Part shown: positions 511-13,815 of the stretch, one piece after another
Layout: each line of letters starts with the position of its first letter
How positions within the stretch are numbered: position 1 is the stretch's first letter
Source: a virus
Virus record (IMG/VR): IMGVR_UViG_3300031722_000534
Coordinates: 1-42,599 of that record
DNA length: 42,599 nt
Reading direction: 5' to 3' (one strand)
Position numbers and translations under genes: made by a program
Notes under the pieces: generated by a model
What the model saw: the letters and a program-made list of their open reading frames with translations, nothing else
Databases searched by the model: none
What the model was told of the DNA's origin: nothing

Positions 511-2115
511 TCAATTTGTCTTAAATTTGTCTAAAGTTTCGGTCATTCTGTTAGAAACAGAGTTCAACTCAGTTGTGATGTTGTTGGCGATGTCCATCTG
601 GTTCGCTGCGCTTTCTGCAGAGATCGCAAGCGACTCCATGCTCAATGCAATGTCTTGTGACGCTGTTGATTGCTCTGAAATCATATCTGCAACCTCATCT
701 GCACCTGCTGACACATTGCCCATCAGCCCGTCAATCTCTAACAACCCGCTTCGTAGTTGTTTCATGTTTTCATTACATTGGTGAATAGCTTTCTCGCTAA
801 CATCCATTGTTGACAGAACCAATTCTGATTCAACATTGAGTTTAGCGGTGGTTTCTTTAATCAATTTTACTGTGTCGCTAGACTTGTTTGCTAGCTTGCG
901 CACTTCGTCTGCGACCACTGCAAAGCCACGACCGTGATCGCCAGCATGGGCAGCTTCGATGGCCGCGTTCAACGCCAGCAAATTTGTTAATCCTGCAACA
1001 TCAGCTACCATTGCAACTAGCTCATCAATTTGTTTCACATCATTTACGAATGTCTTAGTGCTGACCACCGTAGCCGAGATTGTTTTCGACGTTTCGTCTA
1101 ACGCAACAGACAACGAGTTAAGGTCTGCTACTCCCTTTGTTGTCTGCTCAGTTGCTGAGATTGATGCTACTTTAGTTTTTGCAGCATGACTAGATACTTC
1201 GCTAATCGAGACTGAAATTTCTTCAACGGCCGCTGCAACGTTGCTAGTCACGTCTTGTTGTGATCGTATCTGCGAATTTGTTCGAGTAACTACTTCGCCT
1301 AAGCTGCCTGCAGACGAAGTCATATTGCCTGCTTCGTGTTTAAAATTTACGAACATAGACAGCAACAATTCTAAGAAATCGTTAAATGCACTGGCGATAT
1401 TTGCTAGCTCGTCGTTCGCCGACGTGTCAAGACGAACTGTTAAATCGCCGTTACCTGTTGACAAATCTTTTACTGTCTCAGCAAATTTCTGCATACGAAC
1501 CGTCATCACCCGTTTGATTACAAACGCTAAGACTGCTGACAGTATGATAATGCCAACGATGCCAGCAATAATGATTGCTATAATCATGTCGTGTGCAGTT
1601 GATAACATTTCGTCTGCTGCCGCATAATCTATGCCAACGAAGATGCCACCCGCTGCACCATTCTCTAACGATACTGGTATATAGGTTGCTCTGTGTAACT
1701 TGTTGAATAATGTGATAGAGCCAGAATAGATTTTTCCAGAAGCTAATGATTTAGCTGCTGCTGATTCTGGGTCAAGAAATGTACCGACTGCTCTGGTCCC
1801 GTCGTCTTTCTTGAGGTTCGTGGCAGTACGAACGAATTTGCCATCCTTCTGAACAAAATAGGTAGCAACGATTTTTGTGTTGTTTGTGAACGAGTCAATT
1901 ATGCTGCTGTCCGCAAACGAGTCTGTTGTTAGTCCAACAGTTGATTGCATGTTCTTTAATACTAAGACTAACTGGTGACTCTGTGTGTCTAACGCTTTGT
2001 TGGTCATCTCTAAAATCATAAATGACTTGATGAATACAACGATTAACGCAATAACAACAAATGCAGTGATGCTGGACCAGATTAGTAATTTCGACGAGAT
2101 TGTAGTAGGCTTCAT
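511..2115 (-). CDS. Methyl-accepting chemotaxis protein (phage-encoded chemoreceptor)
   Basis: A full 534-residue chemoreceptor. Visible order: short cytoplasmic tail, transmembrane helix about 9-31, a periplasmic sensor region about 35-172 of Cache type, second transmembrane helix about 177-202, HAMP region about 203-258 and a long helical signalling domain to the end. The kinase-binding hairpin tip is intact at about 374-409, with [13 protein letters not shown] and [15 protein letters not shown]. Small departures from the usual tip are GLTN in place of the common QTN and AAHAGD in place of AARAGE. Receptors of this family trimerise and control CheA through CheW, setting flagellar rotation. 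A late-type ATAAATA box lies at 2141-2148. No CheW, CheA or CheR gene is in the window, so it would have to use the host's pathway. The ligand cannot be told from sequence. Confidence 0.95.
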
Positions 2116-2776: not shown

Positions 2777-2856
2777 TGGTGCCCACGGTGGGGATCGAAC
2801 CCACACATTAATACGGTCTGAACGTACCTCCTCTGCCTATTTTGGGATACGTGGGC
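2777..2856 (-). tRNA. tRNA-Leu(CAG), short variable loop
   Basis: Encoded CCA, A73, perfect acceptor and T-arm; anticodon at 2818-2820 in a 7-nt loop with U33. The variable region is only 6 nt although bacterial Leu tRNAs normally have a long arm. The D-loop, AAAATAGGCAGA, resembles those of the Leu(CAA) and Leu(GAG) genes. Confidence 0.75.
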
Positions 2857-2875
2857 ATTGTGCTACTGCGCATAA

Positions 2876-2915
2876 GTCTTGGAACACCCTTCAGGGGGCT
2901 GAACTCAATAGGCTT
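2876..2915 (-). repeat. Leu-tRNA trailer motif, copy 1
   Basis: On the plus strand TCTTGGAA and ACTCAATAGGC flank a short GC-rich hairpin. Related copies lie at 3828-3864 and 8658-8694. Each sits 14-30 nt beyond the 3' end (minus strand) of a Leu tRNA. Confidence 0.5.
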
Positions 2916-2928
2916 GATGCTATAAATT

Positions 2929-3007
2929 TGGTACCCGACCTCGGATTCGAACCGAGAACCAACGGATTTTAAATCCATTCGCACTACCAATTAGCGTACG
3001 AGGGCGT
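2929..3007 (-). tRNA. tRNA-Leu(TAA), mispaired acceptor
   Basis: Encoded CCA, A73, good T-arm and anticodon arm (anticodon 2969-2971). The variable region is 5 nt. Positions 5-7 of the acceptor do not pair with 66-68, so only the outer four pairs form. The 3' half closely matches the Leu(CAA) gene at 3893, suggesting recombination between tRNA genes. Function is doubtful. Confidence 0.55.
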
Positions 3008-3012
3008 TGTCT

Positions 3013-3654
3013 CTACAACTTCTTAACACAAACCACTCTCCCGGCTCTCCAACCTTCCGGAACAGGATCATTCTTTAAAATCTTCTTACTTTCAATTTCA
3101 TTCGTTATCCACATTTTTCCGAATTGCGAATTCTTCACGCCTTGCTGTGTATTCGCCCCTCCGATTTTAAGTTTTGATGCTTCTGAATGTTTCCTTCCAG
3201 CAAATTGATAATACTTTATTTTTCCGAGCAAATGGCTTTGTTTTAATGTTTCGGAACTGATCCTATTTACTTTATCGTTTATTTCAGGATTTTCTTTTCG
3301 TATCTTACTAGTGGCTTTACCACCCTTCGATGATCGACGCTGCTTCTGCTCGGACGAAATGGTGCTATTTATATAGTCAAACCCGCCGAACCCCCCTCGT
3401 CGTAAGTTATATGTATCTTCACGAGCCAAAAATTCTTCTGTTACCACTTCTTTCTCGCGGGCAAACATAGCAGTCGAATTCTCAAACTGCTCAAGTATAA
3501 CCCTCGTGAAATTCTCGATGCCATATTTCTTAATCGCCGAGTTAATTACTTTTCCGGAGCCCATATATCCATCATCTAACTTCTTAGTCTTATGGACACC
3601 TACGTAGATCTTGCCATTCACAGTGTTTGTTACTTGATAAAGTATATAGAACAT
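3013..3654 (-). CDS. GIY-YIG homing endonuclease
   Basis: A 213-residue protein with an N-terminal GIY-YIG nuclease domain (about 2-95): YILYQVTN, then KIYVGVHKTKK and the GYMGSGK-x-x-x-x-AIKKYGIENF block typical of Seg-type endonucleases. Near 153-165 is a GRKHSEASKLKIG segment like the NUMOD3 DNA-binding module. Such free-standing enzymes in T4 (Seg family) cut intronless relatives and spread their own locus. It sits between tRNA genes, matching the habit of these elements to live in phage tRNA clusters. An ATAAATA box (3673-3680) is 18 nt upstream. Confidence 0.93.
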   Translation of the reverse strand: MFYILYQVTNTVNGKIYVGVHKTKKLDDGYMGSGKVINSAIKKYGIENFTRVILEQFENSTAMFAREKEVVTEEFLAREDTYNLRRGGFGGFDYINSTISSEQKQRRSSKGGKATSKIRKENPEINDKVNRISSETLKQSHLLGKIKYYQFAGRKHSEASKLKIGGANTQQGVKNSQFGKMWITNEIESKKILKNDPVPEGWRAGRVVCVKKL

Positions 3655-3672
3655 CTTTGTCTCCTATACACT

Positions 3673-3680
3673 TATTTATG
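3673..3680 (-). promoter_or_regulatory. T4-like late promoter box
   Basis: Minus-strand CATAAATA, 18 nt before the endonuclease start codon. Confidence 0.45.
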
Positions 3681-3704
3681 ACTGATATAAATTGTGTAGC
3701 AATT

Positions 3705-3775
3705 ACTGGACTCGAACCAGTATTGAACAGTATGTAACACTGTCGGCTGACCTCTCACACCAACCGGGCGTTGTT
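3705..3775 (-). pseudogene. Degenerate tRNA-Val(TAC)-like sequence
   Basis: A perfect T-arm (3705-3721) and a perfect anticodon arm with TAC at 3734-3736 are present. There is no encoded CCA and no matching acceptor stem, and the D-arm is irregular. An intact Val(TAC) lies at 9912, so this looks like a decayed copy. Confidence 0.55.
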
Positions 3776-3827
3776 TATTTGCTTGTTCTCCCCTCACGCA
3801 CTCTTACTCTTGGGAGACTTGACTATG

Positions 3828-3864
3828 TCTTGGAAGGCCGAAGCGCGATCCGCCTACTCAATAA
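3828..3864 (-). repeat. Leu-tRNA trailer motif, copy 2
   Basis: TCTTGGAA followed by a GC-rich hairpin and ACTCAATAAG on the plus strand, 29 nt beyond the 3' end of the Leu(CAA) gene. Confidence 0.45.
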
Positions 3865-3892
3865 GTTGTCCCGCTAAGGAACAAGCAAAACT

Positions 3893-3970
3893 TGGTACCC
3901 TACCTCGGATTCGAACCGAGACGTTAACAGTTTTTGAAACTGCCTCCTCTACCTATTGGGATAGTAGGGC
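3893..3970 (-). tRNA. tRNA-Leu(CAA), short variable loop
   Basis: Complete cloverleaf with encoded CCA and A73; all acceptor pairs form. Anticodon 3934-3936. The variable region is 6 nt, class-I length. Nearly identical outside the anticodon arm to Leu(GAG) at 8198. Confidence 0.85.
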
Positions 3971-3978
3971 GTAAATCG

Positions 3979-4386
3979 TTAAATAGAAGTCTTACTAGCT
4001 TTACTGGACTTCTTTGTAGTTGTTTTTTCTTTCTCGTATACCGAGCAAATCTCCGAAGAGATAATGTCAGCTACAGTAATTCTGTCACGCATCGAAACTA
4101 TTGTATCGTTCGACCATTGGCTAGTCGGAGTCTCTCGCATATACAACGTGCCGAATCCTTTATCGCAATCTGCGAACTTAACTCCGTAGTACATGCGGGC
4201 TTCAGATTTTGATTCTTTGAGGAATCGACGACCGATCATCACAGTGTAACCATCCGACAACCTAGTAACTGTTTCAGCGTAAGCCCACCATTCGTTCGTT
4301 TGATCTTCGTTATTGGCAATGAACACCGCTGCATTCGCAGTCATCGCTACACTCATGCAAACACTAAACGCCAGCTTTTTCAACAT
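3979..4386 (-). CDS. Exported (periplasmic) hypothetical protein
   Basis: A 135-residue protein with a clear Sec signal peptide: MLKK, a hydrophobic stretch and an ANA-A cleavage site after about residue 19. The mature part has two cysteines (FADCDKG, SEICSVY) that could form a disulphide, and a Lys/Ser/Thr-rich tail. The start follows GGAG by seven bases. It has its own sigma70-type promoter (4407-4435), which fits early expression of a host-envelope factor, for example one altering the periplasm or blocking superinfection. No family recognised. Confidence 0.85.
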   Translation of the reverse strand: MLKKLAFSVCMSVAMTANAAVFIANNEDQTNEWWAYAETVTRLSDGYTVMIGRRFLKESKSEARMYYGVKFADCDKGFGTLYMRETPTSQWSNDTIVSMRDRITVADIISSEICSVYEKEKTTTKKSSKASKTSI

Positions 4387-4406
4387 TAGTTATTCTCCAA
4401 AAATAT

Positions 4407-4435
4407 ATTGTACTGTTAAATGTTCAATCAGTCAA
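4407..4435 (-). promoter_or_regulatory. sigma70-type promoter
   Basis: Minus-strand TTGACT (4430-4435), 17-nt spacer, TACAAT (4407-4412), about 20 nt upstream of the exported-protein start. Confidence 0.7.
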
Positions 4436-4454
4436 CTAATGTGGTAACATGAAA

Positions 4455-4625
4455 TTATTTTAACGCCGCTAGATCAGCCTTCATTCGCTTGATCCGTGTT
4501 GTGAGCGTTGGCACACTGACTTCTGTCGCAGAGTGAGATTTCTTGGTGATAGCAGTGAGTAATTCAGCTTCGGATTCTTTGATCTGCTCGATCAGTCGAG
4601 CTCTTTTCTTGTCTACTTTACTCAT
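4455..4625 (-). CDS. Small coiled-coil protein
   Basis: A 56-residue Lys/Glu-rich protein, MSKVDKKRARLIEQ..., starting at the ATG at 4625 after AGGAGG. The longer frame to 4703 overlaps a tRNA and has no ribosome site, so I rejected it. Heptad-like spacing suggests a helical hairpin. Function unknown. Confidence 0.75.
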   Translation of the reverse strand: MSKVDKKRARLIEQIKESEAELLTAITKKSHSATEVSVPTLTTRIKRMKADLAALK

Positions 4626-4643
4626 ACTGCCTCCTGTTATGTT

Positions 4644-4717
4644 TGGTACCCGATGATGGAATCGAACCATCGTTACTGGTTTATCGAACCAGGGCTCTCC
4701 CATTGAGCTAACCGGGC
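4644..4717 (-). tRNA. tRNA-Ile(GAT), C33
   Basis: Encoded CCA, A73, full acceptor. The anticodon stem is a perfect 5 bp, which fixes the loop as TCGATAA: anticodon GAT at 4683-4685 but C instead of the near-universal U33. A conventional Ile(GAT) is at 13217. Confidence 0.7.
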
Positions 4718-4816
4718 ATTTCGGTAATCGTATTAGGTCCAGTCAACGCGACATAAATGTCTTTTCTCCTTAGTCAGCATTTGTGCTAAGTAGGGTCAAC
4801 GGTCTTCTACGATGTT

Positions 4817-4893
4817 TGGTACGCCGCCAGGGTAACGATCCCTGTCCTACCGGTTAAAAGCCGGTTGCTTGCCACCATTAGAGCTTGCGACGT
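4817..4893 (-). tRNA. tRNA-Lys(TTT) with inverted T-loop
   Basis: Encoded CCA, A73 and complete stems; anticodon 4856-4858. The T-loop reads ATCGTTA, so positions 54 and 58 are A and U rather than U and A. It is a close relative of Lys(CTT) at 10253. Confidence 0.85.
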
Positions 4894-4994
4894 ATAAATT
4901 CTTGCACCTTCTGTTTCTCGGATGGCGCGTCCTCAGAGTGGTTAGATTAACACTCAAGTCTTCGGCTTATACTCGGTCGCAGACTTACTGCTGT

Positions 4995-5070
4995 TGGTGT
5001 CCCCAACGGGATTCGAACCCGTATCTCCACCTTGAGAGGGTAGCGACCTGAACCATTAGTCGATGGGGAA
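4995..5070 (-). tRNA. tRNA-Glu(CTC)
   Basis: Encoded CCA, good T- and anticodon arms; anticodon 5034-5036. The first acceptor pair is U1-C72, unpaired. Closely related to Glu(TTC) at 10421. Confidence 0.85.
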
Positions 5071-5176
5071 TCTGTGCTGCTTATCCCGCCCTGTCTCCAG
5101 ATATTACTTCCCACTTTCGCTTGCGCCTTAGTGGTACGGTTCACAGTTGCCTGCGATTATCTGCCGGGATAAATCT

Positions 5177-5251
5177 TGGTCGATACGAACGGAATCGAAC
5201 CGCCTTCTGACGCCTTATGAGGACGTTGCATTACCCTAATGCTACGTATCG
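5177..5251 (-). tRNA. tRNA-Met(CAT), elongator or Ile2
   Basis: Encoded CCA, perfect acceptor, anticodon CAT at 5217-5219. Nothing marks it as an initiator; it could be elongator Met or an AUA-reading Ile tRNA after lysidine modification. Confidence 0.85.
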
Positions 5252-5257
5252 AAATTG

Positions 5258-5331
5258 TGGTAGGCCCGGAGAGAATCGAACTCTCGTAGATTGGTTAAAA
5301 GCCAACTATTCTTCCATTGAATTACGAGCCC
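5258..5331 (-). tRNA. tRNA-Lys(TTT), normal T-loop
   Basis: Encoded CCA, full acceptor with normal TTCGATT T-loop; anticodon 5297-5299. A second Lys(TTT), unrelated in acceptor sequence to the inverted-T-loop gene at 4817. Confidence 0.88.
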
Positions 5332-5547
5332 ATTGTGTTCTTTGGGCAATGCCTTATCTAAGCACCACCACGTCTAGCTTACCTAGCAGCATCTCGTTCA
5401 ACTTATCATGTGCATTTACGAGCAACTCTATGTAGCACAGATGACTTAACCCAGTCCTTCTCGGAATCAGTTATACCGATTGCAAACTGATAAGCAGAGC
5501 CCCTTCCCTTGGGGTATAGGCACGAATCCACGTGCGTCGGATAATTC

Positions 5548-5600
5548 TGGTGGACTATTAGGGAATCGAACCCTGGTGGCGACCAATGTTTCTTACTGCC
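5548..5600 (-). pseudogene. Truncated tRNA 3' half
   Basis: Encoded CCA, a 7-nt acceptor strand and a T-arm are present, but no anticodon arm, D-arm or matching acceptor 5' strand follows. Confidence 0.5.
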
Positions 5601-5746
5601 CCGCAAATATGCAGATTAGAGTTTTTAGTTATGCATAACCTCAAACTCGGGGTCGAGACGCCTTCATAAACCATTTAGCCCTTCTGCATCTACTTTAATG
5701 TCGCTGCCGTTAGCACCGCAGTTCACTGATCTGATGCAATAAAGTA

Positions 5747-5775
5747 ATTATACTGCCTATTGTAGTAAAAGTCAA
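5747..5775 (-). promoter_or_regulatory. sigma70-type promoter inside the tRNA array
   Basis: Minus-strand TTGACT (5770-5775), 17-nt spacer, TATAAT (5747-5752). It would restart transcription for the distal tRNAs below 5.7 kb. Confidence 0.75.
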
Positions 5776-5784
5776 GAACTATTT

Positions 5785-5860
5785 TGGTGCTCCCTCCAGG
5801 CCTCGAACCTGGTCCTCATCATTACGAGTGATGCGTACCACCGGGGAATACTTAGAGAGC
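5785..5860 (-). tRNA. tRNA-Thr(CGT)
   Basis: Encoded CCA, complete acceptor with one G-U, anticodon 5824-5826 in a perfect stem. Confidence 0.88.
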
Positions 5861-5866
5861 GTTGTT

Positions 5867-5938
5867 TGGCACCCCGTAACCGAGTCGAACGGTTCATTAG
5901 CGTTTAGAAGACGCCGAGCTGATTCCCTCAGACGGGGC
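5867..5938 (-). tRNA. tRNA-Arg(TCT), compact D-arm
   Basis: Encoded CCA, G73, full acceptor, anticodon 5906-5908. Only 16 nt separate acceptor and anticodon stem, giving a 72-nt tRNA. Same architecture as Arg(GCG) and Arg(ACG). Confidence 0.85.
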
Positions 5939-6172
5939 AAAAATTCTGTCACTGTGCCTAGTGTAGCACTGTCACACACCGCGGTGTGTGCAGGACGTGA
6001 CATCCTGTTTGGTCGTAACTGAGACTATCAGACACCCGGATGCGTTGGGTGAGCCGCACGTCCAATTGTAACCCTATTAGCAGGGGTTTTTCCGAAGGTC
6101 GAAATTACTAAATCCCCCATTTTGTCTTAAGGTCAGTTAGGTCTGACCTAATCGCTCACTACAGCGAATCCT

Positions 6173-6247
6173 TGGTGCGGGTGACAGGAATCGAACCTGC
6201 TTATTTTGGGTGGAAGCCAAACATGCAACCATTAACATCTCACACGC
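6173..6247 (-). tRNA. tRNA-Gly(TCC)
   Basis: Encoded CCA, A73, anticodon 6212-6214. One U-C mismatch at acceptor pair 4-69. Confidence 0.82.
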
Positions 6248-6279
6248 ATTATATGGTCCCTGTGTTGCTAGGGAGAAAG

Positions 6280-6350
6280 TGGCGCCCCGGATAGGATTCG
6301 AACCTACAAAACTGTGCTTCGAAGGCACTGTCCCGTCCATCGGCCGAGGC
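6280..6350 (-). tRNA. tRNA-Arg(TCG), strongly reduced D-arm
   Basis: Encoded CCA, G73, full acceptor and T-arm, anticodon 6320-6322. Only 14 nt lie between acceptor and anticodon stem, so the D-arm is at most 3 bp with a 5-nt loop; total 71 nt. Confidence 0.78.
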
Positions 6351-6425
6351 GTAAATCTAGCTGTTTCGATCACGACATTTTGGCTCTAATTGCCTGGTGT
6401 GGGACGATTCAAACAGCAAAAATAT

Positions 6426-6501
6426 TGGAGCGGCTGAAGGGATTCGAACCCTCGACATCTTGCTTGGCAAGCAAGTGCTCTACCAGCTGAGCTACGGCCG
6501 C
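6426..6501 (-). tRNA. tRNA-Gly(GCC)
   Basis: Encoded CCA with U73 as in bacterial Gly tRNAs, perfect anticodon arm (6466-6468), one C-A mismatch in the acceptor. Confidence 0.9.
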
Positions 6502-6700
6502 GCTGTATGCTAGGATAGCGTCACTCTAATTGTGACGATATTGATCTAGCCCTACGAAATTCTTACTCTGCTGTCCGTCTCAGCTCTAGTCCGGAGTTGG
6601 ACTCCCTTCATAGTCCCATGCTTGATGCCTAAGGGAGTTTCTATGTCAGTCCCAGTTTAACGCTGGTTCGGTTTTGTACGGATAATGGGTTGCTACTGAA

Positions 6701-6814
6701 TCAATAATTCACGTCTTCAACAAACTGACCTGGATACATCTTTTCCAGAATCAAGCTGACGAAGTACGGTATTGCCGGAACAACTACAAACATCACTAAG
6801 TAAAATAATTTCAT
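6701..6814 (-). CDS. Single-pass membrane microprotein 1
   Basis: A 37-residue protein, MKLFYLVMFVVVPAIPYFVS followed by a short acidic tail ending VEDVNY. One transmembrane helix fills residues 2-22. The start follows AGAGGA. It is the last of three tandem, similarly built microprotein genes separated by 9-12 nt, so they are probably translated from one message. Function unknown; such proteins often modify host membrane complexes. Confidence 0.75.
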   Translation of the reverse strand: MKLFYLVMFVVVPAIPYFVSLILEKMYPGQFVEDVNY

Positions 6815-6823
6815 ATCATCCTC

Positions 6824-6943
6824 TTAGCGGTAATCAGTTACGAATGATTCTTCGTGGAACAAGTCCTTCGCAAGCCACAGCGCAATCAGTTGTGGAACTA
6901 GCGGGAGTACGATACAGATCGAAACGGCTATAAATGTCATCAT
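6824..6943 (-). CDS. Single-pass membrane microprotein 2
   Basis: A 39-residue protein beginning MMTFIAVSICIVLPLVPQLI with a charged tail ending FVTDYR. Start at 6943 after GGAG. The TM-then-acidic layout and final DYR match microprotein 3, indicating duplication. Confidence 0.78.
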   Translation of the reverse strand: MMTFIAVSICIVLPLVPQLIALWLAKDLFHEESFVTDYR

Positions 6944-6955
6944 TTCTAGGTCTCC

Positions 6956-7078
6956 TTATCGATAATCGTAATCAAATTCTTCTACTGCGTCGTCTTTGGA
7001 ACCCGCAATAAAAGCTGCGATTGCCGTCGGCAAAATTACAAGAGCTACTATTGTTACTATGGTCATCATCGTCATCAT
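6956..7078 (-). CDS. Single-pass membrane microprotein 3
   Basis: A 40-residue protein, MMTMMTIVTIVALVILPTAI then AAFIAGSKDDAVEEFDYDYR. Start at 7078 after AAAGGAG. One helix of about 20 residues; tail strongly acidic. First gene of the three-gene set. Confidence 0.78.
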   Translation of the reverse strand: MMTMMTIVTIVALVILPTAIAAFIAGSKDDAVEEFDYDYR

Positions 7079-7105
7079 TTTTACTTCTCCTTTGTATAAG
7101 TCTTT

Positions 7106-7129
7106 ATTATACATATACTTATGTCAAAA
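7106..7129 (-). promoter_or_regulatory. Possible promoter for the microprotein set
   Basis: A TATAAT (7106-7111) lies 28 nt before the first microprotein start. A TTGACA is only 10 nt upstream, too close for a standard -35, so the -35 element is uncertain. Confidence 0.35.
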
Positions 7130-7225
7130 GTCTGTAACAAACGCATGGCCTACTGTTGGATATTTGTAAGACAAGCTGCATATCTGTTACATTAGAACTA
7201 AGAATAATGCTATGATGCTATAATT

Positions 7226-7300
7226 TGGTGCCCCTGTCCAGACTTGCACTGAACTGTCCGGCTTACAAGACCGGCACATCGCTATCTATGCTTCAAGGGC
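7226..7300 (-). tRNA. tRNA-Thr(TGT)
   Basis: Encoded CCA, A73, good stems, anticodon 7265-7267. T-loop TGCAAGT has G55 in place of the usual U55. Confidence 0.85.
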
Positions 7301-7307
7301 AAAACTT

Positions 7308-7379
7308 TGGCACCCCGGAGCAGAGTCGAACTGCTGATCGAACCTTCGCAGGGTTCAAGCTAGATCCCCTAGCCGGGAT
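7308..7379 (-). tRNA. tRNA-Arg(GCG), compact D-arm
   Basis: Encoded CCA, G73, anticodon 7347-7349 in a perfect stem; 16-nt D region as in Arg(TCT). Confidence 0.87.
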
Positions 7380-7506
7380 AAATGAGACAGGATACGCATT
7401 GGTTTCTATATAAAAGAATTTTGGAGTTGCTGTAGGTATCCTAAACTACGATGACAGCTCATAGACTTAACCATGAATTATGGGTTTCAAGACCACTGTC
7501 AAAATC

Positions 7507-7582
7507 TGGTGCCGTCGGTTGGTAACGATCCAACATGCTCCTGTGTTTCAAGCAGGCGCTAATCCATTTCAGCTACAACGGC
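7507..7582 (-). tRNA. tRNA-Phe(GAA) with inverted T-loop
   Basis: Encoded CCA, A73, complete acceptor, anticodon 7547-7549. T-loop ATCGTTA (A54/U58). Stem pair 31-39 is C-A. Confidence 0.82.
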
Positions 7583-7588
7583 AAAACT

Positions 7589-7663
7589 TGGTCGGTATGG
7601 CAGGACTCGAACCTGCATCGTCTTCGCCCCGAACGAAGTGATCAACCTTTGACCCACATACCG
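7589..7663 (-). tRNA. tRNA-Pro(CGG)
   Basis: Encoded CCA, perfect acceptor, T- and anticodon arms; anticodon 7629-7631. Confidence 0.9.
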
Positions 7664-7671
7664 AGAATATT

Positions 7672-7746
7672 TGGAAGGAAGTCGCAGAGTCAAACTGCGT
7701 TAAGACTGGTTTGCAATCAGTCGCCTAGCCGTCCGGCCCACTCCCC
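7672..7746 (-). tRNA. tRNA-Cys(GCA)
   Basis: Encoded CCA with U73, the Cys identity base. Anticodon 7712-7714 in loop TTGCAAA; acceptor formed with G-U pairs. Confidence 0.88.
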
Positions 7747-7751
7747 ATTAC

Positions 7752-8147
7752 TTATTTTGATGCTGCTATCGGCTGCACTATATTCGCCGATGGTACTTTC
7801 TTAGCATTTGCTGTGGTTAATTTAGCAATGATTAAGCTAAACCCTGATGCAACTTCAGTGTCAGTGCCATATACTTTGCACACCGTGCCATCTGCTGCTT
7901 TGAAGTAACTAGCATCATACAGATTGAATTTATTCGGAGTAACAATCAATCCCGAGATTTGCACGCCGACATATTCTGTCGACACTGCGTCGATCAAAGC
8001 TACAATTTTTGCTATCGTAGCATCTAAATTCTTTGTGGTATTCAGATTCGAAGGGACCTTAAATTTGATGAATTCGTTTCCAGTAGCCTTAGATGTCTTT
8101 GGCTTCGGTAACTTTACACCTTCATTGATAAATTGTGTTGATTTCAT
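7752..8147 (-). CDS. Hypothetical protein with capsid-targeting-like leader
   Basis: A 131-residue protein starting MKSTQFINEGVKLPKPK, after AGGA. The leader resembles T4 internal-protein targeting peptides (MKTYQEFIAE in IPIII), which are cut by the prohead protease after an I/L-x-E. Here INE-G would be the site. The rest is a small alpha/beta protein without recognised family. An ATAAATA box at 8170-8177 supports late expression. I infer a head-packaged protein, not proven. Confidence 0.8.
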   Translation of the reverse strand: MKSTQFINEGVKLPKPKTSKATGNEFIKFKVPSNLNTTKNLDATIAKIVALIDAVSTEYVGVQISGLIVTPNKFNLYDASYFKAADGTVCKVYGTDTEVASGFSLIIAKLTTANAKKVPSANIVQPIAASK

Positions 8148-8169
8148 TTCTAATCCTCAGCTAGTGTAT

Positions 8170-8177
8170 TATTTATC
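8170..8177 (-). promoter_or_regulatory. T4-like late promoter box
   Basis: Minus-strand GATAAATA, 22 nt upstream of the gene starting at 8147. Confidence 0.5.
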
Positions 8178-8197
8178 ATGCTGCACTAGATATGTTT

Positions 8198-8275
8198 TGG
8201 TACCCTACCTCGGATTCGAACCGAGACGTTACAACGTTCTCAACGTTGCTCCTCTACCTATTGGGATAGTAGGGC
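8198..8275 (-). tRNA. tRNA-Leu(GAG), short variable loop
   Basis: Encoded CCA, A73; acceptor, T-arm, D-arm and variable loop match Leu(CAA) at 3893. Anticodon 8239-8241; variable region 6 nt. Confidence 0.87.
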
Positions 8276-8285
8276 GTATTGTTTA

Positions 8286-8546
8286 TTATCGTTTACTGTA
8301 AATTGCGACGTGAATCGTGTCGCCTTCTTCTTCAACGTCAAGTCTAATATTGTCGCCCATCTGCTCGATGTCCTCAAGCTCATTCATTAATGATTCTGAG
8401 GTTCGGCTAATGTTTGGACTCTTAATAGAAAAATATATGTTGCCGTCTTCTAGATCAACATGACTATTGCCTAAATATCGTTTCACTACATTGGAGACAT
8501 TGCTGCCTGCGAGCGTTGATTCAGTGATAAATTCAGTCGACTTCAT
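8286..8546 (-). CDS. Small hypothetical protein with capsid-targeting-like leader
   Basis: An 86-residue protein starting MKSTEFITESTLAGSN at 8546; the frame extends further upstream without a convincing ribosome site, while this ATG follows AAGGAAC and an ATAAATA box (8567-8574). The leader matches that of the 131-residue neighbour. The C-terminal two thirds are acidic (DIEQMGDNIRLDVEEEGD). Probably a second small late protein destined for the head. Confidence 0.78.
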   Translation of the reverse strand: MKSTEFITESTLAGSNVSNVVKRYLGNSHVDLEDGNIYFSIKSPNISRTSESLMNELEDIEQMGDNIRLDVEEEGDTIHVAIYSKR

Positions 8547-8566
8547 AAGAATGTTCCTTAAAACAA

Positions 8567-8574
8567 TATTTATC
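8567..8574 (-). promoter_or_regulatory. T4-like late promoter box
   Basis: Minus-strand GATAAATA, 20 nt upstream of the start at 8546. Confidence 0.5.
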
Positions 8575-8657
8575 TTAACCAATGAGCCTATGTCTGCAGG
8601 TCCCTCCTCCTAGAAGAGCCGATAGCAGTTTGCCGCTCACTACACCATGTTGCACGG

Positions 8658-8694
8658 TCTTGGAACGCCTCGCCCGCCACAGACTCAATAGGCC
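8658..8694 (-). repeat. Leu-tRNA trailer motif, copy 3
   Basis: TCTTGGAA, GC-rich hairpin, ACTCAATAGGC on the plus strand, 19 nt beyond the Leu(TAG) 3' end. Confidence 0.5.
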
Positions 8695-8712
8695 TAGTGT
8701 ATTACTTAAATT

Positions 8713-8789
8713 TGGTGGGAGATAAGAGACTCGAACTCTTAACATCATGCTCCTAAGGCATGCGCGTCTACCAATTGCGCCAATCTCCC
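8713..8789 (-). tRNA. tRNA-Leu(TAG), short variable loop
   Basis: Encoded CCA, A73, perfect acceptor. The D-arm (GGCGCAATTGGTAGACGC) is a classic bacterial Leu D-arm, and the anticodon is 8753-8755, yet the variable region is just 5 nt. Confidence 0.87.
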
Positions 8790-8881
8790 GTATCTTTGTT
8801 TCTAATGGCTTTCGCTCGTTGCTACCGGGTCATGACTCCGATGTTGCAAAGGGTAATTACTCCCTGATTGTCATATCGATA

Positions 8882-8935
8882 AAAGGATTCGAACCTTCTC
8901 CTGGTCCCGCTCTACCCATTAAGCTACTCGGGGCG
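8882..8935 (-). pseudogene. tRNA remnant without anticodon arm
   Basis: A T-arm and a D-arm plus acceptor 5' strand are recognisable, but the space for the anticodon arm is missing and the acceptor strands do not pair. Confidence 0.45.
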
Positions 8936-8937
8936 AT

Positions 8938-8962
8938 ACCCCAAGGGTGGACTCGAACCACC
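8938..8962 (-). pseudogene. tRNA 3' fragment (T-arm only)
   Basis: A perfect T-arm (8946-8962) with 7 nt of possible acceptor; no CCA and no following anticodon or D-arm. Confidence 0.4.
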
Positions 8963-9014
8963 GCCTAGACCTGTGCAACCATACACTAATCAAAGTTCTC
9001 TCACTTGCGAAACC

Positions 9015-9110
9015 TGGAGCCGATGCGCAGATTCGAACTGCCCGTGGTATGTAAGGATCACCCGCATACCTGTTATGGATTCTTACCAGCACCTACTGGG
9101 ATTCATCGGC
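9015..9110 (-). tRNA. tRNA-like element, isotype unresolved
   Basis: Encoded CCA, U73, a perfect 7-bp acceptor and a T-arm. The 61 nt between them are too long for class I. GTAAG/CTTAC could be an anticodon stem closing a 26-nt loop, but no U33-anticodon reading fits. It may carry an insertion or be defunct. Confidence 0.45.
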
Positions 9111-9117
9111 AAAACTT

Positions 9118-9189
9118 TGGCACCCCGTGAACGAGTCGAACGTTCCTTCAAAGCTTCGTAGGCTTCGAGCTAATTCCCTTAGACGGGGC
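9118..9189 (-). tRNA. tRNA-Arg(ACG), compact D-arm
   Basis: Encoded CCA, G73, perfect acceptor, anticodon 9157-9159. A34 would need deamination to inosine to read three codons. 16-nt D region. Confidence 0.88.
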
Positions 9190-9195
9190 ATTGTT

Positions 9196-9287
9196 TGGCG
9201 GAGAGCTAGGGAATCGAACCCTACGGCCGGCTATTAACCGACCTACAGTTTAGCAAACTGCTGCCTTTGCCACACAGCCCGCTCTCC
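9196..9287 (-). tRNA. tRNA-Ser(GCT)
   Basis: Class-II tRNA: encoded CCA, G73, 21-nt variable arm (9224-9244), anticodon 9252-9254. Confidence 0.9.
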
Positions 9288-9296
9288 ATATTCTTT

Positions 9297-9461
9297 CTAA
9301 ATCGTGTACGTTCTATTGAGCCACTCACTAGTAATTGCACTTCGTCGAGCTTTCTCTTCAAATTCTTTATTGGCTGCGTCTAATCGCGCCATCATCTCGT
9401 CAACAAACTCTGGTGTTACTACAAACTCGTCCATCAATTTTAACAACTCTTCTATTGTCAT
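9297..9461 (-). CDS. Small helical hypothetical protein
   Basis: A 54-residue protein, MTIEELLKLMDEFVVTPEFV..., rich in charged helix. Its ATG overlaps the stop of the preceding 56-residue gene (ATGA), so the two are translationally coupled. Encoded within the tRNA array between Ser(GCT) and a broken tRNA. Function unknown. Confidence 0.72.
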   Translation of the reverse strand: MTIEELLKLMDEFVVTPEFVDEMMARLDAANKEFEEKARRSAITSEWLNRTYTI

Positions 9462-9628
9462 TGCTGTTTACCTGCTGAACGAAACGCATCTTTCCATCCT
9501 GCATAATATGTTGAAGGAATACCATCAGCGTTACGATTAATAACATATCCGCCGGCTTCCATAAACTCAATGCATTCGGTCGGAAGTAATCGTACTGGCT
9601 TATTCAATTCTTGTTCAGTGTATTCCAT
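9458..9628 (-). CDS. Small hypothetical protein
   Basis: A 56-residue protein, MEYTEQELNKPVRLLPTECI and so on, containing GGYVINRNADGIPSTYYAGWKD further on. The start at 9628 is six bases after AGGAG. Residues 27-48 look like a compact aromatic-rich fold. Coupled to the next gene through an ATGA overlap. No family recognised. Confidence 0.75.
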   Translation of the reverse strand: MEYTEQELNKPVRLLPTECIEFMEAGGYVINRNADGIPSTYYAGWKDAFRSAGKQQ

Positions 9629-9643
9629 CATCAACTCCTAAAT

Positions 9644-9705
9644 TGGTGCCCATGGAAGGATTCGAACCCCCGACCGTCCGGTTAAATACCGGCTGCTCTA
9701 ATCTT
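9644..9705 (-). pseudogene. Broken tRNA-Lys-like 3' part
   Basis: Encoded CCA, acceptor strand, T-arm and an anticodon stem with TTT but A33 in the loop. The sequence after the anticodon arm diverges and no acceptor 5' strand follows. Confidence 0.5.
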
Positions 9706-9830
9706 CCCTATCGTTGACTTAGGCTACTCGATATCACTTCGCCATCATCTGTCAAGTTCCGACCAAGATGTACCAACTAGCTTTGTTGGCATGAACCTTG
9801 CTACCTCTGAGCTACACAGACTTTGAAACT

Positions 9831-9904
9831 TGGTGCGGGCACCCGGATTTGAACCGGGACTCAAAGTGTGGCGCACTTAGTGACTGCCGTTATCGTATGC
9901 CCGC
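9831..9904 (-). tRNA. tRNA with GCC anticodon (Gly-type), C33
   Basis: Encoded CCA, A73 (unlike U73 of the other Gly genes), perfect acceptor. Loop GCGCCAC gives anticodon GCC at 9870-9872 with C33. D-arm weak (3 bp). Confidence 0.6.
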
Positions 9905-9911
9905 ATATTAT

Positions 9912-9986
9912 TGGTAGTCGGTGAGGGTTTCGAACCCCCGACATCCAGCTTGTAAGGCTAGCGTTCTACCCCTGAACTAACCGACC
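9912..9986 (-). tRNA. tRNA-Val(TAC)
   Basis: Encoded CCA, A73, complete stems, anticodon 9952-9954. Confidence 0.9.
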
Positions 9987-9993
9987 ATATATC

Positions 9994-10001
9994 TATTTAT
10001 A
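9994..10001 (-). promoter_or_regulatory. T4-like late promoter box in tRNA array
   Basis: Exact TATAAATA on the minus strand between Phe(GAA) and Val(TAC), oriented to transcribe Val and onward. Confidence 0.5.
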
Positions 10002-10009
10002 CTAAACTG

Positions 10010-10085
10010 TGGTGCCCCCATACGGAATCGAACCGTCTCCTCGCGCTCTTCAGGCGCACGTACAGACCACTTATACCATGGAGGC
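10010..10085 (-). tRNA. tRNA-Phe(GAA)
   Basis: Encoded CCA, A73, acceptor complete, normal T-loop; anticodon 10049-10051, G37. Confidence 0.85.
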
Positions 10086-10101
10086 ATTGAAACTTAAATT
10101 T

Positions 10102-10177
10102 TGGTCTCCGTGTTCAGATTTGAACTGAAATCGCCTGGCTCCAGACCAGCTATGCTACCGGGTTGCACCACACAGAG
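10102..10177 (-). tRNA. tRNA-Pro(TGG), C33
   Basis: Encoded CCA, C1-G72 start as in bacterial Pro tRNAs, Pro-like D-arm. Loop TCTGGAG: anticodon TGG (10141-10143) with C33. Confidence 0.75.
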
Positions 10178-10180
10178 ATA

Positions 10181-10250
10181 TTCTATTACGAGCGGGAAGT
10201 TAGAGATCGTCTTTCGAGGATACATCTAACCATTAGCCCCACCGTTAAAA
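10181..10250 (-). pseudogene. Possible tRNA remnant
   Basis: A D-arm-like segment (GGCTAATGGTTAGA on the minus strand) followed by a hairpin, but no T-arm or CCA. Weak. Confidence 0.3.
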
Positions 10251-10252
10251 CT

Positions 10253-10329
10253 TGGTACGCCGCCAGGGTAACGATCCCTGTCCTTCCGGGTAAGAGCCGG
10301 ATGCTTTCCACCATTAGAGCTTGCGACGT
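10253..10329 (-). tRNA. tRNA-Lys(CTT) with inverted T-loop
   Basis: Encoded CCA, A73, anticodon 10292-10294. Shares acceptor, T-arm and D-arm with the TTT gene at 4817; T-loop ATCGTTA. Confidence 0.87.
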
Positions 10330-10340
10330 ATTGTAAAACT

Positions 10341-10412
10341 TGGAGCGGGCGAAGATGTTCGAAATCTCCTGTTCCAGCTTGGAAGGCTAGACGTTCTCCA
10401 CTGACCACCCGC
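10341..10412 (-). tRNA. tRNA-Gly(TCC), second copy
   Basis: Encoded CCA, U73, anticodon 10381-10383; compact 72-nt tRNA. Differs from Gly(TCC) at 6173. Confidence 0.87.
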
Positions 10413-10420
10413 ATAAAACT

Positions 10421-10494
10421 TGGTATCCCCGACGGGAGTTGAACCCGCATTCTCACCTTGAAAGGGTGGCGACCTACCATTAGTCGACAGAGAT
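10421..10494 (-). tRNA. tRNA-Glu(TTC)
   Basis: Encoded CCA, full acceptor with two G-U, anticodon 10460-10462. Confidence 0.88.
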
Positions 10495-10502
10495 ATATAA
10501 CT

Positions 10503-10576
10503 TGGAGTCGCGTACGGGACTCAAACCCGTCTCATCAGCTTGAAGGGCTGAGAATCTCCCCGAAATTCAACGCGAC
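10503..10576 (-). tRNA. tRNA with TTC anticodon, C33, U73
   Basis: Encoded CCA, perfect acceptor. Stem-defined loop CCTTCAA gives TTC at 10542-10544 with C33. U73 and overall layout resemble Gly(TCC) at 10341, whose loop is CTTCCAA, so isotype is uncertain (Glu by anticodon, Gly by scaffold). Confidence 0.6.
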
Positions 10577-10585
10577 ATAAAACTG

Positions 10586-10659
10586 TGGCACCCCGCCAGG
10601 GAATCGAACCCCGTCCAGGAGATTTGGAATCACCTGTGCTACCGGAACACTTGCGAGGC
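10586..10659 (-). tRNA. tRNA-Trp(CCA)
   Basis: Encoded CCA, G73 (Trp identity), complete acceptor, anticodon 10625-10627. Confidence 0.86.
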
Positions 10660-10730
10660 ACTGCGCTAGCAACATGTCTTACCTTTCACCTCCATACGGC
10701 AGGTCTAGTAAGGGGAGCTAGCTTAAAACT

Positions 10731-10800
10731 TGGCGCTCCAATACAGAATCGAACTGCATTACCTTCGGCTTCGCTGCCTCCGGTAAAACCACTTTAGAGC
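10731..10800 (-). tRNA. tRNA-like element lacking a D-arm
   Basis: Encoded CCA, G73, perfect 7-bp acceptor and T-arm. Only 35 nt lie between them; they form one long arm (TTACC/GGTAA enclosing GGC/GCC) and leave no D-arm. No valid anticodon loop can be read. Confidence 0.5.
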
Positions 10801-10805
10801 AAAAC

Positions 10806-10879
10806 TGGTTGCGGCCGAGGGTAACGCTCCCTCTCCCATCACAGGTTATGAGCCTGGAGTCTAGCTATTAGAAGCCGCT
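10806..10879 (-). tRNA. tRNA-Met(CAT), initiator-like, inverted T-loop
   Basis: Encoded CCA, A73, mismatched first pair A1-A72, loop CTCATAA as in bacterial initiators, anticodon 10848-10850. T-loop AGCGTTA. Variable region 7 nt. Confidence 0.72.
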
Positions 10880-10885
10880 ATATCT

Positions 10886-10964
10886 TGGTTGCGGAGGCAG
10901 GATTCGCACCTACGATCTCTGGCTTATGAGGCCGGCGGGGACGACTGGACTCCCCTACTCCGCG
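10886..10964 (-). tRNA. Initiator tRNA-fMet(CAT)
   Basis: C1-A72 mismatch, the formyl-methionine initiator signature, with encoded CCA and the ending CGCAACCA. Anticodon 10926-10928 in loop CTCATAA over a GGC/GCC stem top. Confidence 0.82.
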
Positions 10965-10979
10965 ACTGATCTTAAATTT

Positions 10980-11056
10980 TGGTGGGCAAGTAGGGAATCG
11001 GACCCTCTAAATCTGCTATGTCAAAGCAGCCTGAAAACCATTTCAGCGTCATGCCT
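10980..11056 (-). tRNA. tRNA-Val(GAC)
   Basis: Encoded CCA, perfect anticodon arm (11020-11022). Acceptor pairs 1-72 and 6-67 are mismatched, so activity is less certain. Confidence 0.68.
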
Positions 11057-11068
11057 ATTGTAACTGTT

Positions 11069-11143
11069 TGGTGGGCGCACTTGGGATTGAACCAAGGACC
11101 TGAGGATTATGAGCCCTCTACTCTACCACTGAGTTATACGCCC
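11069..11143 (-). tRNA. tRNA-Met(CAT), elongator or Ile2
   Basis: Encoded CCA, fully paired acceptor starting G1-C72, anticodon 11109-11111. Not an initiator by its first pair. Confidence 0.88.
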
Positions 11144-11150
11144 ATATCCG

Positions 11151-11411
11151 TTAACTCCAACGTAACACAAACAACGTGTAATCCTCATCGTTCGCAAATG
11201 TCAGCTTAAATGTTTTATACTGATTAGGCCGATACTCTAAACTCGCATTGTGCTGCGTAAGTTCTAAAGTCAATGCGTTGACTAGACTAGTCCAACCCGG
11301 CGAAGAACCTACAGTATGTTTCTTCCAGCAATAACTGTAAAAGTTTCCCCAAGCAGTATCTTGTTTGGGTTTTAAGGTGTTGATGTTACTAATCTCTTCG
11401 CAAACAACCAT
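11151..11411 (-). CDS. Hypothetical protein
   Basis: An 86-residue protein starting MVVCEEISNINTLKPK. It has an aromatic-rich middle (WGNFYSYCWKKH) and ends DYTLFVLRWS. No family recognised. The ribosome site is weak (GAAAG, seven bases before ATG). It is flanked by tRNAs Met(CAT) and Pro(TGG), is not a tRNA shadow, and has ordinary codon use. Confidence 0.65.
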   Translation of the reverse strand: MVVCEEISNINTLKPKQDTAWGNFYSYCWKKHTVGSSPGWTSLVNALTLELTQHNASLEYRPNQYKTFKLTFANDEDYTLFVLRWS

Positions 11412-11505
11412 GTTAGCTTTCTATATTGGTTCCCTGTGTAGTGGTTGCAACTACTGCCCATACCCCTCAACGGGGACGCTCGTCTCGTCGAGCTGCCAGG
11501 AAATC

Positions 11506-11580
11506 TGGTCGGGATGGTGTGAATCGAACACACGACGTCCTGTTCCCAAAACAGGCGACATACCACTTGCCTACACCCCG
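11506..11580 (-). tRNA. tRNA-Pro(TGG), normal U33
   Basis: Encoded CCA, C1-G72, perfect T- and anticodon arms; anticodon 11546-11548. Confidence 0.9.
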
Positions 11581-11603
11581 TAATTCTTTCTACTGCTAAA
11601 CTG

Positions 11604-11681
11604 TGGTCGGGGCGGCTGGATTCGAACCAGCGGTCTCCTGGTCCCAAACCAGGCGCAATAACCAGGCTATGCAACGCCCCG
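11604..11681 (-). tRNA. tRNA-Pro(TGG), third copy
   Basis: Encoded CCA, perfect acceptor, T- and anticodon arms; anticodon 11644-11646. D-arm much like bacterial Pro tRNA. Confidence 0.92.
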
Positions 11682-11711
11682 AAGTTATCTTTTCTTACAC
11701 TTACGAATTCT

Positions 11712-11827
11712 TGGTGCGGGAAACGGGACTCGAACCCGTATAGCCAAAGCCGAGAGATTTTGTTGAGCACCCGCGTTAGCAGATGCTCCGTGAAAGTCTC
11801 TTGTGTATACCATTCCACCACTCCCGC
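11712..11827 (-). tRNA. Leu tRNA with 32-nt insertion in the anticodon loop
   Basis: Encoded CCA, A73, good acceptor and T-arm, a Leu-type D-arm and a 13-nt class-II variable arm (11740-11752). The anticodon stem AGAGA/TCTCT (11753-11757 with 11797-11801) closes a 39-nt loop instead of 7. Removing 32 nt would leave CTTAAAA, anticodon TAA, or CAA with a shifted boundary. The insertion contains a 5-bp hairpin (GAGCA/TGCTC). It is far too short for a group I intron. Confidence 0.75.
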
Positions 11828-11846
11828 ATACTTTCTACTGCTTTAC

Positions 11847-11854
11847 TATTTATA
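11847..11854 (-). promoter_or_regulatory. T4-like late promoter box in tRNA array
   Basis: Exact TATAAATA on the minus strand, 20 nt upstream of the insertion-bearing Leu tRNA. Confidence 0.5.
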
Positions 11855-11890
11855 CAGTTTAACAGGCGTGCTGTTAAAAAGCAACTGTTT

Positions 11891-11964
11891 TGGCGAGAAG
11901 AGAAGGAATCGAACCCTCGTCCGAGCGTTTGGAGTGCCCTATTCTACCACTGAACTATCAACTC
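11891..11964 (-). tRNA. tRNA-Trp(CCA), second copy
   Basis: Encoded CCA, G73, loop CTCCAAA with anticodon 11930-11932. Acceptor pairs 4-69 and 5-68 are U-U mismatches. Confidence 0.78.
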
Positions 11965-11969
11965 ATATT

Positions 11970-12009
11970 CGGTTGTGGGGAGTGACCCCACGTTCCCTTG
12001 ACAGGGCAA
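11970..12009 (-). pseudogene. tRNA-Asp-like fragment
   Basis: A T-arm-like hairpin and an anticodon loop CTGTCAA (GTC) remain, but there is no CCA, and D-arm and acceptor 5' strand are replaced by the next tRNA. Confidence 0.4.
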
Positions 12010-12012
12010 ACT

Positions 12013-12086
12013 TGGCGACCTGTGGGGGACTCGAACCCCCTTCTACGGATAGACAATCCGCGATAATACCCTTATATGAACAGGCC
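12013..12086 (-). tRNA. tRNA-Asp(GTC), U37
   Basis: Encoded CCA, G73 (Asp identity), complete acceptor; anticodon 12052-12054. Position 37 is U, where a purine is expected. Confidence 0.8.
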
Positions 12087-12103
12087 GTGCTCTTTGCTTA
12101 TTC

Positions 12104-12177
12104 TGGGGGGAAGCCGGGAATCGAACCCTGGTCCCTCGATTCACAGTCGAGGATTCTACCACTGAAATAACAACCCC
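12104..12177 (-). tRNA. tRNA-His(GTG)
   Basis: Encoded CCA with C73 and a G available at -1, the His signature. Perfect anticodon arm, anticodon 12142-12144. Acceptor has two U-U mismatches. Confidence 0.85.
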
Positions 12178-12307
12178 ATTGAAAACCTTTTACATTTGGT
12201 CCTGCACCTATTCTGACTCACACGCCGGTTTAACTTAAGGCATGACCTTAGACAACCACGTTCTTTTATCATTTTGCTACAGGGCCGAATCTGTTACATT
12301 GAAAACC

Positions 12308-12402
12308 TTTTGCTCCATTGGCTGGATTCGAACCAGCAAGACCTTTCGGAAGACGCATTAACAGTGCGTTGCAGTACCAATTATGCTTACAATGGAGCAA
12401 AA
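12308..12402 (-). tRNA. Class-II tRNA scaffold with Asn GTT anticodon, extended acceptor
   Basis: T-arm, anticodon arm (GTT, 12360-12362), D-arm and a 15-nt variable arm (12338-12352) are all formed. The acceptor continues into a perfect 13-bp helix, TTTTGCTCCATTG with CAATGGAGCAAAA. No CCA is encoded. Normal Asn tRNAs are class I, and two follow immediately. Confidence 0.65.
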
Positions 12403-12427
12403 GACTTTCGTCTCTTGCTTAAAACTT

Positions 12428-12505
12428 TGGCTCCGAGAACTGGAATCGGACCAGTCTAATCGTGATTAACAGTCACGCGGTTGCCACCATGGCGCCTCTC
12501 TCGGA
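12428..12505 (-). tRNA. tRNA-Asn(GTT)
   Basis: Encoded CCA, G73, perfect acceptor and anticodon arms; anticodon 12468-12470. T-loop TCCGATT has C55. Confidence 0.88.
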
Positions 12506-12515
12506 ATTAAAACTT

Positions 12516-12591
12516 TGGCTGGCTAACTTGGGCTCGAACCAAGGACCTGATGATTAACAGTCATCTGCTCTACCAACTGAGCTATAAGCCA
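12516..12591 (-). tRNA. tRNA-Asn(GTT), second copy
   Basis: Encoded CCA, G73, anticodon 12556-12558; one U-U mismatch in the acceptor. Confidence 0.88.
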
Positions 12592-12601
12592 CCTGAACTA
12601 C

Positions 12602-12922
12602 TTAATACTTTGTGTTCAAAACTGCCATCAACGCCTTAACAGTTTTGCCGTCGACTCCTGGAAATTCACGTTTCAATATTGCCGGAACGCTCGTTTCCTC
12701 TGGATCCCATTGACCTTCGAGACCGTAGCAAGAACAATGTCCACCGTTTACTTCGTACAGTTTACCTTCTTTGCGGAACAACACGAATGCTGAACCGCTG
12801 TAGTCGGCTTCCTCATACCAAGCTAACAGCACCTTTATTCCTTTTACTTCATCTTTCGATATCTGAAAATCACGTACCATATCATCAACGTTAGACCAAT
12901 CACCACGATATACATTTTCCAT
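12602..12922 (-). CDS. Conserved phage protein of unknown function (GGHCSCYGLEGQW motif)
   Basis: A 106-residue protein starting after AAGGAG. The centre has VLFRKEGKLYEVNGGHCSCY followed by GLEGQWDPEE, a motif I recognise from many phage hypothetical proteins; the paired cysteines and histidine suggest metal binding. The C-terminus is helical. Function is not known. It separates the Asn and Thr tRNAs. Confidence 0.85.
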   Translation of the reverse strand: MENVYRGDWSNVDDMVRDFQISKDEVKGIKVLLAWYEEADYSGSAFVLFRKEGKLYEVNGGHCSCYGLEGQWDPEETSVPAILKREFPGVDGKTVKALMAVLNTKY

Positions 12923-13000
12923 TTTGTTTCTCCTTAGGTTAGTACAGCATAGTATGTCGCCTAGGATATCTCAACGGTCGTGCATATTTACAACAAAATC

Positions 13001-13075
13001 TGGTGCCCGGGGACGGACTCGAACCGTCATATCGTCTATACCAAAGACGTGTAATTGCCTCTATACTACACGGGC
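13001..13075 (-). tRNA. tRNA-Thr(GGT)
   Basis: Encoded CCA, perfect T- and anticodon arms, anticodon 13040-13042; one acceptor mismatch. Confidence 0.88.
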
Positions 13076-13080
13076 GAAAC

Positions 13081-13155
13081 TGGCAGGGATGCAGGGAATC
13101 GAACCCCGGAACTGACGTTCAAAGCGTCATATGTCTACCACTCCATCACATCCCA
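13081..13155 (-). tRNA. tRNA-Gln(TTG)
   Basis: Encoded CCA, G73, perfect anticodon arm, anticodon 13120-13122. First pair U1-U72 is open, consistent with the weak 1-72 pair favoured by GlnRS. Confidence 0.88.
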
Positions 13156-13216
13156 ACTGAAACTATGCAAGAAGTGGACACCTTTTCATCAGTGACTCAG
13201 TATCTTGCTTTAAACT

Positions 13217-13420: not shown

Positions 13421-13428
13421 AATGTTTT

Positions 13429-13807: not shown

Positions 13808-13815
13808 AAAGTTAG

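Follow-up and report, generated by a model that had tools for sequence, protein, structure and literature searches.

Methyl-accepting chemotaxis proteins (MCPs) form a known family of receptors. The E. coli receptors Tsr and Tar (36H class) combine a sensor that is a four-helix bundle with a HAMP domain and a signalling hairpin. Other receptors have Cache sensors, of which the Cache_3 type is a minor group (201 + 330 cellular MCPs, compared to 4908 with dCache_1 and 1534 with sCache_2; PMC4822843). The sCache_3_3 sensors of Oscillibacter ruminantium (PDB entry 8py0) and Asticcacaulis benevestitus (8py1) are each described in the title of the entry as a complex with formate. In an independent study, an sCache_3_3 chemoreceptor domain from gut bacteria was found to bind formate (PMC12415202). 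Phage-borne members of the family are almost undescribed in the literature searched: no report of a phage chemoreceptor was found, the coverage of the search being incomplete. In the annotated phage collection, only one MCP is credible. It is labelled 'hypothetical protein' and belongs to the Vibrio phages Yong XC31, XC32 and MS31. Vibrio phage vB_VmeM-Yong XC31 is a cultured jumbo phage of 290 kb and carries a complete MCP (QAX96201.1). A paper on a related phage, which includes a comparison with XC31, leaves chemotaxis unmentioned (PMC7765460).

The stretch of DNA analysed here (the window, 42,599 nucleotides) is an entire virus record (positions 1–42599). All features of the window described below are located on its minus strand. 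The frame at 511–2115 is unbroken, starts with ATG, has no internal stops and encodes a phage-borne MCP of 534 residues. Transmembrane helix 1 (aa 11–29, 2029–2085, hydropathy 2.78) is followed by a periplasmic sensor of the sCache_3_3 type (aa 33–172, 1600–2019), transmembrane helix 2 (aa 178–196, 1528–1584, hydropathy 3.17), a HAMP domain (aa 202–249, 1369–1512) and the MCP signalling domain (aa 341–496, 628–1095). All Pfam domains pass the curated cut-offs: MCPsignal matches aa 341–496 (1.5e-31, 110 bits, cut-off 34.6), sCache_3_3 aa 69–172 (1e-18, 68 bits, cut-off 28.8) and HAMP aa 202–249 (2e-7). The sensor is also matched by Cache_3-Cache_2 (5e-23). The protein thus has the typical MCP layout, with a periplasmic sensor between two transmembrane helices and a HAMP domain behind them. 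Bacterial receptors and core signalling units are the closest solved structures, both by sequence and by predicted fold. The gene product is a complete chemoreceptor, and this identity is firm. The sequence-only reading had described a complete MCP with sensor, HAMP and CheA/CheW-binding tip; since Pfam, hydropathy and structure matches agree, this description is accurate.

Taken alone, the sensor matches 8py0 (9e-14) and 8py1 (3e-11) by sequence. AlphaFold left the sensor unmodelled in the full-length protein and a model was obtained from a sensor-only alignment (pLDDT 74, pTM 0.70). The top fold matches of this model are again 8py0 and 8py1 (Foldseek TM 0.72 and 0.65, respectively). The window sensor is therefore of the sCache_3_3 type and nearest in structure to two formate-bound receptors. 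It shares with them the single-Cache fold, the transmembrane MCP layout and the motif RT-x-T...DG-x-R-x-VGT. In the window protein this motif comprises aa 96–112 (1780–1830) and, judged from the alignments, is a possible ligand pocket. In contrast to the two bacterial receptors, the window protein is encoded by a phage, its sensor is only about 26–32% identical to theirs and its ligand binding is a prediction. Based on the structure matches, the common motif and the formate binding reported for gut bacteria (PMC12415202), the leading candidate for the ligand is formate or another small carboxylate like it.

The virus is identified by its terminase large subunit (32643–34196). Environmental phage contigs have terminases that are up to 66% identical to it, PA5oct/MIJ3-type Pseudomonas jumbo phages 51.5% and both Agrobacterium phage Atu_ph07 and Sinorhizobium phage Phosso 49%. 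UvsX, head-closure and further genes also match sibling phages. The previous label 'T4-like' holds in the broad sense of a T4-type terminase and UvsX. More exactly, the virus belongs to the jumbo myoviruses within the wider T4 superfamily, with a T4-type terminase, UvsX and a late promoter of the TATAAATA type. The sheath family PF04984 gave no information, since a myovirus was among the genomes without a match to it. An array of 43 tRNA genes (2777–15622) adjoins the RNase HI and MCP genes. Within these 13 kb specificities are repeated, e.g. three tRNA-Asn and four tRNA-Pro, and in sibling phages tRNAs are likewise present beyond the terminase region. Directly upstream of the terminase gene, the frame at 34196–35020 encodes a 274-residue paralogue of the ATPase half of the terminase (41% identical) without the nuclease half. 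Matches to this paralogue were obtained in 80 of 80 sibling loci, some or all of which may be matches to the terminase proper. Further genes of the window include a P-loop kinase resembling Zeta-toxin (19247–19993, Pfam 3e-10) and a pair of adjacent radical-SAM-type genes (24378–26509).

The start codon of the MCP gene is preceded by a probable Shine-Dalgarno sequence AGGA (2122–2125) and, at a distance of 25 nt from the start codon, by the box GATAAATAT (2140–2148), which is of the late type [G/C]ATAAATA common to the head genes. A scan for TATAAATA with one mismatch is by itself chance-like, a reading that is overturned by strand and position. In the window, NATAAATA has 15 copies on the coding strand and none on the other strand. 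Eight of these copies, against about 0.6 expected, are found no further than 30 nt upstream of a gene start (binomial P 6e-8), among them those of head-region genes and the copy GATAAATA of the MCP gene at 2141–2148. The longer form NATAAATAA, mostly as GATAAATAA or CATAAATAA, occurs in 80 sibling loci 110 times on the terminase strand and three times on the other strand. As the MCP copy reads GATAAATAT, its final base differs from the commonest form in the clade. The late-type promoter box noticed before is thus corroborated by its strand bias, its start-proximal placement and the 110:3 bias in siblings.

The immediate upstream neighbour is an RNase HI gene (2167–2604), assigned by Pfam and by its viral relatives, which lies on the same strand at a spacing of 51 nt. 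Its nearest viral relatives are found on large contigs; a related terminase is present on three of these (292, 355 and 358 kb). The 292-kb contig lacks an MCP, and its RNase HI gene is preceded by tRNA genes of the same orientation. Downstream of the MCP gene, a small orphan gene (150–446) is located behind TTGACT-N16-TATAAT and probably forms its own transcription unit. Codon usage and GC content of the MCP gene are inside the range spanned by the other phage genes. Four lines of evidence, namely the late-type box, the phage-range codon usage and GC content, the phage-type RNase HI neighbour and the lack of a close bacterial match in the tip scan and the relatives search, indicate that the MCP gene genuinely belongs to the phage locus, in agreement with the earlier claim of a chemoreceptor encoded by a phage. 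An assembly chimera, in which the end of a phage contig was joined to bacterial DNA, is extremely unlikely. The MCP gene does lie within 2.2 kb of one end of the contig, and the junction is not spanned by a second contig. A bacterial insert would not be expected to have a phage late-type box 25 nt upstream, phage-range codon usage, no close bacterial match and a 51-nt spacing to a phage-type RNase HI gene on the same strand, which is itself tRNA-adjacent in another jumbo contig.

The origin of the gene was sought by a search against MCP families and a tree. The families sCache_3_3, HAMP and MCPsignal were assigned, whereas the donor was not traced: the best relatives, from plasmids and viral contigs, share about 30% identity with it, in the signalling half only, and the window MCP forms a long branch. 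No close relative was found in a single-protein scan of viral contigs, and no close bacterial sequence in the prokaryote tip scan and the relatives search. An MCP is also absent from 33 sibling contigs, all of which are fragments. Some database matches were rejected as phage MCPs. The match in Pseudomonas phage Y13 (OQ572414.1, a GenBank 'phage' marked UNVERIFIED) lies in a record that resembles a bacterial chromosome over the 13-kb stretch examined, with genes such as those for an ABC transporter and a LysR regulator. Listeria, E. coli and Salmonella 'phage' matches belong to records that are unannotated or bacterial. The lack of a relative in the sibling contigs and the long branch would suit a passenger, i.e. 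a captured bacterial gene without present benefit that has persisted by chance in a variable region where the tRNA array ends. A passenger in decay would not be expected to have an intact frame of 534 codons, adapted codon usage, a phage promoter box and a conserved sensor motif, and this explanation is considered quite improbable.

The window MCP is not unique, since other large phages carry MCPs. Like the window protein, that of XC31 is a complete MCP, but it has a dCache_1 sensor and a canonical tip with QTN and R and falls into a separate clade. Further MCPs are encoded in IMG/VR on contigs of 89, 250, 257, 394 and 437 kb. Phage identity is backed by terminase or tail genes for XC31 and the contigs of 89, 250 and 257 kb; for those of 394 and 437 kb it relies on their IMG/VR classification and on neighbouring genes, a few of which weakly match phage families. 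A single clade of phage MCPs was rejected (p-AU 2e-5) in a tree that has long branches and from which the MCP of the 89-kb contig (L007) was left out. Seven MCP-bearing virus records contain no CheW-domain protein, CheA included, whereas control genomes gave matches. Hence any output must go via the host kinase. The sensor motif is present wholly or partly in the Cache_3 sensors of the phage contigs L007, L038 and L073. Of the 6 phage MCPs in the set examined, 4 have Cache_3 sensors, compared to 2 of the 49 other MCPs; the Fisher P is 0.0006 and rises to 0.004 if the window is excluded. This comparison includes few phages and is biased by a search seeded with a Cache_3 protein. Because of this seed, the over-representation is only a lead. 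The MCP of L007 (9561–11498), a contig with T4-type tail genes, has QTK at its tip instead of the near-invariant QTN, and the tip of L073 carries NAQIEAA and EIG. It is conceivable, though rather doubtful, that huge phages repeatedly captured MCPs with a preference for Cache_3 (formate-type) sensors and evolved altered tips that seize host swimming late in infection.

Compared to Tsr, the N arm of the window hairpin is longer by 14 residues (two heptads) and the C arm by a similar amount. The arms are thus symmetric and are presumably those of the 40H class. The strict methylation-site consensus has no match in the window MCP, which has one relaxed site (aa 294–303) and, in the C arm, an EQ pair. 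Although most tip residues are shared with Tsr and Tar, the protein differs from these by its Cache sensor, its longer arms, the absence of the C-terminal NWETF pentapeptide and two tip residues. The hairpin tip (aa 370–409, 889–1008) keeps 28 of 30 strongly conserved columns and the exceptions are Q376L (codon 988–990) and R390H (codon 946–948). Of 54 aligned relatives, 53 have Q at position 376 and 52 have R at position 390. The alignment confirms both changes reported in the sequence-only reading (GLTN for QTN and H for R). The combination of L and H occurs in only four stretches in 84,980 prokaryote species genomes, all from Spirochaetota. The pair is therefore very rare, yet present in cellular receptors. 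The Spirochaetota MCPs L177, L178 and L180 (LTN...H tips) share both substitutions with the window MCP but are otherwise not among its close relatives in the family and are located elsewhere in the tree. Judged from the alignment, coupling is probably altered, not necessarily abolished.

These tip changes may also be read as those of a protein that enters host trimers and jams the array. L376 and H390 would then block or lock kinase control in a dominant-negative manner and lead to smooth swimming or non-response. Both changes are at near-invariant positions, of which 390 aligns with Tsr R388, a trimer contact. Furthermore, the L and H combination is nearly absent from bacteria and some other phage MCPs likewise have exceptional residues at conserved positions of the tip (L007 has QTK, L073 has Q385 and G406). 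On the other hand, H390 and the pair of L and H are natural in Spirochaetota receptors, the phage MCPs of L037, L038 and XC31 have canonical or near-canonical tips and a jammer would have no need of an intact sensor. The intact sensor favours an added sense and the tip changes favour a jammer, which overall is judged unlikely. The MCP fold could also serve in the membrane for something other than chemotaxis, e.g. in superinfection exclusion, as a cue for lysis timing or as a structural part, which would agree with expression apparently timed with the late genes. However, such a role needs no CheA/CheW-binding tip, which is largely kept here, and is very unlikely.

The explanation that is favoured, with a little better than even confidence, is that of a real chemoreceptor of a jumbo myovirus which joins the host arrays late. 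The MCP would be expressed from the late-type box late in infection, be inserted into the host inner membrane and form dimers and then mixed trimers with host receptors. Coupling would occur via the host's own CheW and CheA, as no CheW domain was found in the phage records examined. The array would gain an input for formate or small carboxylates, or its set point would shift, and infected cells would swim differently ahead of lysis. This explanation is favoured by the full domain set, the receptor structure matches, the formate-type sensor, the symmetric arms, the late-type box and the phage-range codons. Additionally, it is favoured by the non-monophyletic recurrence of MCPs in large phages, with neither CheW nor CheA in seven records. 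It is weakened by the absence of the strict methylation consensus, by L376 and H390 at near-invariant positions and by the 33 fragmentary sibling contigs without the MCP.

An enrichment of viromes in 'motility and chemotaxis' genes was once reported and later attributed to cellular contamination (PMC3877843). An intact MCP in a phage locus, behind the late-type promoter of the phage itself, together with the MCPs of Vibrio phages and of large contigs, reopens this question and provides specific, testable genes for it. As an intact sensor protein is apparently switched on late, the virus may alter the swimming of infected cells. If the receptor is functional, the phage would be able to rewire where infected cells swim.
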